Shown one piece after another: positions 2,687 through 36,934 of a DNA stretch of 64,000 bases. This DNA is from an uncultured Bacteroidales bacterium (lineage in GTDB: Bacteria > Bacteroidota > Bacteroidia > Bacteroidales > UBA932). The translations under genes and the position numbers were made by a program. How positions within the stretch are numbered: the first letter of the stretch is position 1; each line of letters opens with the position of its first letter. The stretch lies in NCBI GenBank assembly GCA_905234485.1, contig CAJOHV010000003.1, positions 16,020-80,019 of the forward strand. The letters run 5' to 3'. The notes beneath the pieces were generated by a model. It had not been told where the DNA came from. It saw nothing but the letters and a program-made list of their open reading frames with translations, and ran no database searches.

Positions 2687-3600
2687 GAGAGTTTATTGAA
2701 AGTCCTTTCAGACAGAGTAAAGCTGCTTCCGGAAATGGGGCAGCTTTCTTTATTCTCTCCTACGGTAAGAGTAAGAGTACCGCCGCTTTCGCTGTATGTT
2801 CCGCTTGCTATATCGAAGATAATAGGACTTACGCGGGAATCAGACACGGTCCCGGCGTAAAGGCCGGAAATACGGACGAAACTGTCCTTGCCGTTGAAAA
2901 TGTAGGCGATAGGAATATCTGCGGGGTGGCCGGTATTGTTGTAGGTCCATACGGTACCTTTTAGACCGGACGTTCCCTCTTCTTCTTCGAGGGGATCGTC
3001 TACTATCTGAAGCGCGTAGACGCCGCTGGTCATAATCCCTTTATAAAGAGTTGCGGAAAGCCCGCCTGCCTCGACCGTATTGCCGCTGATTTTCGCGGAA
3101 TTTCTCACTCCGCTCCATCCGTAGGGGGCTGAGGCGTCAACGCGGGTTAGGTTGGCGTATAGAATATCTACACACTCAGTATCGGAAAGGAAATAGGCTA
3201 TGTGGAGATCGCCATGGATCGGAGTCGACCATACTGAACCCGCCAGGGTCGGATAAGAACAAGGCGAGATCTGGGTGTAGTTGTCGTTTTTATTGACACG
3301 CTTCAGATTGAAGAAAGTCCTGTTGATAGTGTATTCCGAAGCATATTCAGTCTTGACCGTAAGGACATGGCCGTCTGCAGTGTAGGTACCATGGTCTGCC
3401 TGAACGCGGCCGAGCGCAGCGTTGTGTTGGAGAAGGCTGGCGCTGTCTGAATTGTGGAAACAGACCCAGGTGGTTACGTCGTCTATCTTCAGGGTCCAGG
3501 TAGTTCCCTCTACCGGAAGGAAAAGGTGTTCCTTGTACGAGCAGGAATTCAGAGTCAGGAGCAGCGCTGCCGACAGGACGGGGATAAGAGACTTTCTCAT
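2680..3600 (-). CDS. Putative lipoprotein with three internal repeats
   Basis: Signal MRKSLIPVLSAALLLTLNSC (lipobox); start trimmed from the ORF track (4062) to Met at 3600. Three GT/SxW-type repeats. Confidence 0.7.
   Translation of the reverse strand: MRKSLIPVLSAALLLTLNSCSYKEHLFLPVEGTTWTLKIDDVTTWVCFHNSDSASLLQHNAALGRVQADHGTYTADGHVLTVKTEYASEYTINRTFFNLKRVNKNDNYTQISPCSYPTLAGSVWSTPIHGDLHIAYFLSDTECVDILYANLTRVDASAPYGWSGVRNSAKISGNTVEAGGLSATLYKGIMTSGVYALQIVDDPLEEEEGTSGLKGTVWTYNNTGHPADIPIAYIFNGKDSFVRISGLYAGTVSDSRVSPIIFDIASGTYSESGGTLTLTVGENKESCPISGSSFTLSERTFNKLSY
2719..2751 (+). terminator. Rho-independent terminator of the EPS genes
   Basis: AAAGCTGC-13nt-GCAGCTTT perfect 8-bp stem followed by CTTTATT; lies over the 3' end of the opposite-strand CDS. 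Confidence 0.55.
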
Positions 3601-31374: not shown

Positions 31375-31417
31375 ACCGCCCCGGTGGAGCCTTTGGCGCC
31401 CTTCCGGGGCGGTTTTT
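31375..31417 (+). terminator. Rho-independent terminator of rfbB
   Basis: ACCGCCCCGG...CCGGGGCGGT perfect 10-bp stem followed by TTTT. Confidence 0.85.
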
Positions 31418-31527
31418 GTTCAAGGTTTGATTGTAAGGCACATACCTTGAACACCAAATCCTGCACTAACGATACTGAAAATGCGATTAGGCGTTCAAGG
31501 TCTCACATAAAAAATCAAACCTTGAAC
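31418..31527. repeat. Composite REP/BIME-like palindromic element 1 (35-nt unit, 40-nt spacer, inverted 35-nt unit)
   Basis: Units 31418-31452 and 31493-31527 each GTTCAAGGT-17nt-ACCTTGAAC; outer 20-nt perfect inverted repeat TTTTTGTTCAAGGTTTGATT (31413-31432 / 31513-31532). Confidence 0.85.
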
Positions 31528-31578
31528 AAAAACGCTGATAATTAGACTGCAAAACTTGGTTTGAAGCTGCTCTTTTAC

Positions 31579-31586
31579 TATGTTTG
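31579..31586 (+). promoter_or_regulatory. -7 box TATGTTTG for the ORF117-RAYT cassette
   Basis: TTG (31556-31558)-N20-TATGTTTG. Confidence 0.45.
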
Positions 31587-31619: not shown

Positions 31620-31973
31620 ATGAAAAAGATCTTAGAAGTGCTCCAATATGGAGACAATGACATCCGTTTTAAAACAGACCTTGAAGTTGAGAAGAACCCG
31701 GAAATGGTTCTTGAACTGACATCCAAATTCGCGTTCGCAATGGTAACAACTCTTTGGGGCGGAAATGAACGCACCGTTTTGGCCATGATACGCTCCCTTG
31801 CAATTGCCGACCTCGCAGTGAGCGTGAACAGGAAAGAAATGGTAGGCTTTCTTGACGACAGTTCAGGCATGCTGGCTAAGAGTATGCAAGAAGCGAAACA
31901 AATGATGGAGCGAGAGGGCGTCAAGTTCACCTATTTCGCCCCCGGAGTGCAACCCCCGAAAATGAGGAGTTAG
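31620..31973 (+). CDS. Hypothetical 117-aa protein, candidate accessory gene of the RAYT transposase
   Basis: Intact ORF ending 2 nt before the transposase start, same strand; no family recognised. Confidence 0.7.
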   Translation: MKKILEVLQYGDNDIRFKTDLEVEKNPEMVLELTSKFAFAMVTTLWGGNERTVLAMIRSLAIADLAVSVNRKEMVGFLDDSSGMLAKSMQEAKQMMEREGVKFTYFAPGVQPPKMRS

Positions 31974-31975
31974 TC

Positions 31976-32890
31976 ATGAGGCGCTCAGTAGTCAGGGCCT
32001 TGCCTGATGGCAGAGTCATTACAGTCTACCCTTTCCATATTTGCATCAAGGGATTGGAAACAGCGATTTTGTGCCGCGACGATGATGACTATGATGCGAT
32101 GGTCAAGGTTCTTTGCGTTTCCGCTTGGAGGTGCAATGTGATAATTATTATTTATGCGGTCGTATCGAATCATTGCCACGTTGCCGTGCTTGCTGCCAGT
32201 AGGGAAGATGCTGATAAATACGGAAGGGATATCAAGAAGGTTTATTCTATGTGGTTCCGTCGGAGATATGGGGTCGGGAACGTCTTGATGAGAATCGAGA
32301 CGAAAGCCATTATGCTCGATTCAGATTGGTATGTTAGAAACGCCCTGGCGTACATTCCGCGAAATGCATTGGATAATGGCTGCAACATCAATGACTATGA
32401 GTGGTCTGGATACAAAGCGATGTTTGCCGGCGAAAAGAAAGTGATGGGTGCCAGAAAAGTATCTCAACTTGACGCACGTTCAAGAAAGCGCATCATGCAC
32501 ACCGGCGATCGTCTGGACCGGGTGCCGTGGCTCATCGATTCGGCGGACCATTTGATCCCGGCGAGTTTCTGCGACCACACGTATTTGGAACAGGCATTCA
32601 ACAATGACCAGAGTTTCTTCCTTAAAACCATAGGCGCCCTTAACACGGCGGAGATTTCGTACAAACTCGAGGAGCGCCCATACCGTATGGTCAATGACAC
32701 GGAATTGCAAAAAACCGTGGAAGAGATATCAGAGCGATGGTTCGCAAAGCCGGTCGCGGCTCTGAGCATCGAACAGAAAAACAGGCTGATTCCGTATGTC
32801 TATCACATCATTAAAACGACCCCCAAACAACTTGGCCGTGTGTTCGGTTTGCCTGCCGATAGGATGTCGGGGATGCTGGAACGCAATTAA
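31976..32890 (+). CDS. REP-associated tyrosine transposase (Y1 HUH, RAYT/TnpA_REP-like)
   Basis: HUH-type motif SNHCHVAVLA, tyrosine motif DWYVRNALAYIPRNAL; nearby palindromic units. Confidence 0.85.
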   Translation: MRRSVVRALPDGRVITVYPFHICIKGLETAILCRDDDDYDAMVKVLCVSAWRCNVIIIIYAVVSNHCHVAVLAASREDADKYGRDIKKVYSMWFRRRYGVGNVLMRIETKAIMLDSDWYVRNALAYIPRNALDNGCNINDYEWSGYKAMFAGEKKVMGARKVSQLDARSRKRIMHTGDRLDRVPWLIDSADHLIPASFCDHTYLEQAFNNDQSFFLKTIGALNTAEISYKLEERPYRMVNDTELQKTVEEISERWFAKPVAALSIEQKNRLIPYVYHIIKTTPKQLGRVFGLPADRMSGMLERN

Positions 32891-36824: not shown

Positions 36825-36934
36825 GTGCAAGGTTTGTTTTTACGTGACAGACCTTGCACATTCATTTTGCCCTACACGTAATTGTGGGAGCATTCATTCG
36901 TTCAAGGTCTGACTACTAAAAACAGACCTTGAAC
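36825..36934. repeat. Composite REP/BIME-like palindromic element 2 (35-40-35)
   Basis: Units 36825-36859 (GTGCAAGGT-17nt-ACCTTGCAC) and 36900-36934 (GTTCAAGGT-17nt-ACCTTGAAC); outer inverted repeats 36822-36842 / 36917-36937 match at 19 of 21 positions. Confidence 0.85.

Follow-up and report, generated by a model that had tools for sequence, protein, structure and literature searches.

A conserved gene translationally coupled to a divergent RAYT in uncultured Bacteroidales encodes a probable accessory protein

In a 64-kb stretch of DNA (the window; contig CAJOHV010000003.1, assembly GCA_905234485.1), we identified a gene for a 117-aa orphan protein (P117) that directly precedes, and is translationally coupled to, a gene for a RAYT (REP-associated tyrosine transposase). 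Homologues of P117 are under strong purifying selection and mostly occupy this same position. We propose that P117 probably serves a lineage-specific RAYT as a co-expressed accessory protein, most likely with a regulatory role. All coordinates refer to the window (Table 1).

Table 1. Features of the P117–RAYT locus and of a second REPIN copy in the window
Feature	Position	Strand	Evidence
rfbB terminator hairpin ACCGCCCCGG/CCGGGGCGGT, then T run	31375..31413	+	sequence
REPIN-like element	31412..31533	no strand	inverted repeat, aligned genomic copies, DNA fold
Candidate Bacteroidetes -7 box TATGTTTG (TAnnTTTG)	31579..31586	+	sequence; enrichment upstream of family members
P117, 117-aa orphan protein, family type A	31620..31973	+	homologues, alignment, model, dN/dS
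Coupling junction AGGAG TTAG TC ATG	31962..31978	+	sequence; RAYT HMM match positions
RAYT (REP-associated tyrosine transposase), 304 aa	31976..32890	+	motif, alignment, model, fold match
Second REPIN copy, same family, 3′ of glutamate dehydrogenase-like gene	36825..36934	no strand	pattern search, alignment

The gene pair and its RAYT

The preliminary description of this DNA had drawn the two ORFs with a 2-nt gap between them, and its coordinates proved exact. At the junction, a Shine-Dalgarno-like purine-rich stretch lies within the last P117 codons and is followed by the stop codon, 2 nt and the RAYT start. A separate candidate promoter for P117 had also been suggested; in agreement, the box type is enriched upstream of the family, with TAnnTTTG present within 90 nt upstream in 33/121 members compared with ∼5 in shuffles. 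The same box occurs at only 3/95 P117 3′ ends. Being enriched upstream of P117 and rare at the P117–RAYT junction, it fits a single promoter for both genes, which are presumably co-transcribed. The neighbouring gene, earlier called YiiX-like, indeed matches PF05708, and no such gene was found beside the other P117–RAYT loci inspected.

P117 had been assigned to no family, and Pfam, NCBIfam and PADLOC likewise gave no match. Searches against PHROGs returned no reliable match, and comparison of the P117 model with the PDB and viral folds returned chance matches only. Its predicted fold comprises an N-terminal β-hairpin (residues 6–18), three helices (28–43, 50–66 and 71–98) and a flexible tail ending in Ser. 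With >100 homologues of conserved length and dN/dS values mostly of 0.05–0.15, P117 is a real gene.

The window transposase is a divergent RAYT. H66, H68, Y126 and N130, which make up an HUH motif and one catalytic Tyr, are invariant in an alignment of 84 sequences, and the Y motif reads YIPRNA. The structural model (pLDDT 94.7) has as its top PDB match 4er8_A (E 3.3e-4, TM 0.66 by target length), the structure of the E. coli RAYT in complex with a REP hairpin, and carries a helical C-terminal region of ∼140 residues. Curated models place the protein below their thresholds: it scores 18.3 bits against the Y1_Tnp cut-off of 23, and NCBIfam REP_Tyr_transpos gave no match for it and sub-threshold scores for three relatives (16–32 of 80 bits). 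Since these family cut-offs were missed, RAYT membership rests on motif, fold and REPs. RAYT paralogues in the same genome are divergent, sharing at most 49% identity with the window RAYT. Cleavage of single-stranded REP DNA is its proposed activity.

REPIN-like elements accompany the RAYT

Between the rfbB terminator and P117 lies a feature absent from the preliminary description, a 21-nt perfect inverted repeat (31412–31432/31513–31533). Within it lie two REP hairpins in inverted orientation (GTTCAAGGT...ACCTTGAAC) and a spacer that varies between copies; the element has its core at 31418–31527 and folds strongly as single-stranded DNA (z −8.06). By pattern search of the same genome (82% complete), the REP arm had 47 matches at ≤3 mismatches compared with 20 for a reversed control, and the close matches were mostly paired, 95 nt apart on opposite strands. 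Ten aligned copies have conserved arms and a variable middle. The element thus has the two inverted REPs and the dispersal of a REPIN, but about ten doublets in this 82%-complete genome rather than a high copy number (>100). The REP core in the stem is [AC]AGGT, and no canonical GT[AG]G foot was seen when the flanking arms and the 10 copies in the alignment were inspected.

A second RAYT of the same clade, encoded on contig C44 of this genome, is accompanied by a REP type of its own, whose pairs are spaced by 81 nt. The genome therefore holds two partner–RAYT–REPIN modules with different REPs, and the partner on contig C44 belongs to a divergent form of P117 (form B, described below; the window P117 is form A). 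Across loci, AGGT-core inverted repeats flank 41/55 A loci, 27/38 B loci and 13/18 same-clade partnerless RAYTs, compared with 5/52 other partnerless RAYTs, 2/27 solo P117 loci and 0/240 shuffles. REPs go with the RAYT, not with the partner. Since 13 of the 18 same-clade partnerless RAYTs keep these REPs, P117 is not required for a RAYT–REP locus to persist.

The REPIN arm also has a 15-nt exact match inside the P117 coding sequence (31671–31685). Autoregulation of P117 through this match was rejected, as the REPs of a locus match its own P117 gene no better than do the REPs of other loci.

Linkage, partner types and losses

The P117 profile matched in 108 of 400 same-genus genomes and, among 388 Bacteroidia genomes, in the window's own only (0/387 others). 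Named records bearing P117 are uncultured Bacteroidales, many from ruminant guts, and one short contig labelled Clostridia is probably misbinned. No viral contig with P117 was found, and a phage origin of the protein was rejected on this basis.

Linkage was scored on 124 P117 matches at E ≤ 1e-20, of which two were cut by contig ends, leaving 122 classified. A RAYT lies directly 3′ on the same strand in 95 of the 122 (one odd tandem copy included), counting RAYT HMM matches that start −32 to +66 nt after the P117 stop (mostly 7–14 nt; negative distances are HMM matches starting in an overlapping or mis-started ORF). For a random gene, we estimate <1% adjacency (up to 11 RAYTs among ∼2000 genes). 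The other matches comprise two with a RAYT directly upstream, about 18 solo copies, and fragments or tandem short copies. Because these loci were found via P117, they give no measure of partner frequency among RAYTs. That frequency comes from a RAYT-first sample, drawn by RAYT and not by partner, which comprises the 33 distinct genes most similar to that of the window RAYT: 16 of these same-clade RAYTs have a partner (7 A, one of them split over two contigs, L006/L025, and 9 B) and 17 have none. Among all RAYTs of the genus, a partner is a minority feature.

The central claim of the preliminary description, that the RAYT has a conserved partner to which its translation is coupled, withstands the refutation tests proposed there. 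P117 homologues, far from lying mostly away from RAYTs, sit directly upstream of one in most cases; RAYT orthologues carry a partner in about half of the clade sample and in a minority genus-wide. The linkage stands, but ‘dedicated’ was too strong a word for the partner, given the solo P117 copies, the several RAYTs that have lost P117 and the occurrence of form A with other RAYT lineages.

Other arrangements were also seen. In L235, L237, L238 and L239, P117 relatives that are short and divergent occur as tandem pairs, in most cases with no RAYT. In L009 (1080–1493) and L014 (1081–1470), an ORF that looks Myb/SANT-like by eye lies directly upstream of a P117 relative, with a repeated-sequence array further upstream in L014. 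Several same-clade partnerless RAYTs adjoin a gene judged DprA-like by eye from its translation (L028–L031; downstream in L023).

Form B (126–182 aa) is a divergent relative of A that shares its N-terminus and an IRxLxxA[DE] helix, and holds the same place upstream of the RAYT, including at the second RAYT–REPIN locus of the window's own genome. In a third type, a similar N-terminal hairpin is followed by an HRDC domain (PF00570 match in L036). Profile comparison aligned the hairpins over 22 columns at 83% probability, a short match, and their homology is no more than probable. Of 19 small HRDC genes examined, 9 lie near a RAYT, in some cases separated from it by a B gene. Small HRDC proteins with a P117-like N-terminal hairpin were noted in L202, L213, L215, L216, L223, L086, L087, L084 and L331–L349, beside P117-B and/or a RAYT; several others stand alone.

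A quick tree of 170 RAYTs contains a single strongly supported clade of 100 rows, of which 82 have a partner in this partner-enriched sample. A and B partners fall mostly in separate subclades, with A also found alongside other RAYT lineages. Distances of P117 and RAYT correlate (Mantel r 0.72 for A and 0.87 for B; 0/1000 permutations as high), although correlated divergence is also expected for any two genes inherited as a unit. Pairwise dN/dS (Nei–Gojobori, own script; dS near saturation in several pairs) falls mostly in the range given above for both P117 and RAYT, indicating strong purifying selection, and this includes solo P117 pairs (0.05 for L153/L156; 0.135 for L009/L198).

Losses on both sides led us to reject a strictly obligatory partnership. 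L002, L145 and L229 have flanks ∼90% identical to those of L146 and L148, yet no RAYT directly after the P117 stop. In L146, a 32-bp direct repeat of the P117 3′ end occurs beyond the RAYT (2971–3002 vs 1826–1857) and may be a route for clean RAYT loss. Behind 18 solo P117s, weak traces of a RAYT remain at two (L009 and L198), and in L177 a RAYT follows 154 nt on. Conversely, P117 was lost and the RAYT kept in L024 (vs L003) and L087 (vs L213).

Clean loss of the RAYT with P117 kept, and purifying selection on solo copies, would be expected if P117 had a host function of its own and the RAYT locus merely borrowed its promoter and translation, the pair being linked in inheritance. We regard this as unlikely, because linkage alone would hardly explain ∼78% adjacency to RAYTs, the association with several RAYT lineages, or divergent B and HRDC families in the same place.

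Possible role of P117 and comparison with known systems

The last residue of the P117 family is Ser or Asn in 113/117 members, compared with 10% for Ser and Asn together at internal positions. The last codon is ARY in most members, and a terminal Ser is encoded by AGY in 69/75 (31968–31970 in the window). This pattern fits a requirement at the level of the protein as well as one at the level of the mRNA, where ribosome binding for the RAYT would be served; solo P117 copies mostly keep the terminal Ser/Asn, which leans to the protein. Together with the junction geometry and the Shine-Dalgarno-like last codons, this codon bias could mean that P117 is mainly a leader ORF that, when translated, exposes the RAYT start site and restrains RAYT output, with the protein itself of secondary importance. 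We give this little credence, given the low dN/dS across the whole gene, its conserved length and its predicted fold. Two small coupled genes with a patchy distribution and repeated loss also recall a toxin–antitoxin or selfish addiction pair with no part in REP processing, but this is very improbable: the second gene is an HUH transposase with an intact motif and matching REPINs, either gene can be lost with the other left intact, and P117 matches no known toxin or antitoxin family in Pfam, NCBIfam or PADLOC.

The accessory role is favoured by the adjacency far above random expectation, the dN/dS values, the Mantel correlations, the grouping of A and B partners in one RAYT clade together with the presence of A in other RAYT lineages, the two REPIN modules, the HRDC partners and the promoter box upstream of P117. 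Against it stand the partnerless half of the clade RAYTs, the solo P117s under selection and a fold that matches nothing. If P117 is an accessory protein, it would form an operon with the RAYT inside a REP-flanked locus, and coupled translation would have the two proteins produced jointly. P117 would most likely act by direct binding, with the N-terminal β-hairpin, which appears to have a counterpart in all three partner types, docking on the RAYT. The variable remainder (a helical bundle in A and B, the HRDC domain in the third type) would then tune the site or the strength of RAYT action in cleaving and rejoining single-stranded REP hairpins, and REPIN movement would be held low. More tentatively, A, B and HRDC proteins might constitute a modular family of RAYT cofactors, with a common docking hairpin and a differing module that selects or restrains the DNA substrate. 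If so, a domesticated REP transposase would for the first time be seen to have protein cofactors, and these would offer a way to study how hosts limit their REPIN populations.

RAYT–REPIN systems have been described as one gene with passive repeats, and their retention by hosts still calls for an explanation. Our search of the open-access literature, with subscription papers outside its scope, found no report of a RAYT protein partner, and P117 may be the first to be recognised. A coupled partner under selection makes this directly testable, since the activity of the RAYT on its REP can be compared in the presence and absence of that partner.

The locus shares with IS200/IS605 elements (TnpA and TnpB) an HUH/Y1 transposase, hairpin DNA substrates and, as in some of those, a second gene alongside. 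In contrast, its second gene is not TnpB, and the RAYT paralogues are divergent rather than recent near-identical copies. TnpAY1 subclass 2.6, mostly from Bacteroidetes, is described in passages of PMC6006769 as having atypical secondary structures on either side of its genes, with further copies of these structures in the same genome, and the window RAYT is similarly flanked. According to the same passages, however, subclass 2.6 has a mean length of 179 aa and the Y motif YIH[QN]NP, and YIPRNA also departs from the Y-x(3)-NP motifs given there for subclass 2; the passages mention no partner gene, whereas the window RAYT has one.

The closest likeness is to RAYT/TnpAREP with REPINs (the ‘REPtron’ of E. 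coli, Pseudomonas and Stenotrophomonas), in the HUH motif with a single catalytic Tyr, the fold nearest to 4er8, the REP-flanked RAYT gene and the inverted REP doublets dispersed in the genome. The window system differs from the REPtron in its REPs, with the [AC]AGGT stem core in place of the canonical foot and about ten REPINs, in the large helical C-terminal region of its 304-aa RAYT, and in having a coupled partner gene.
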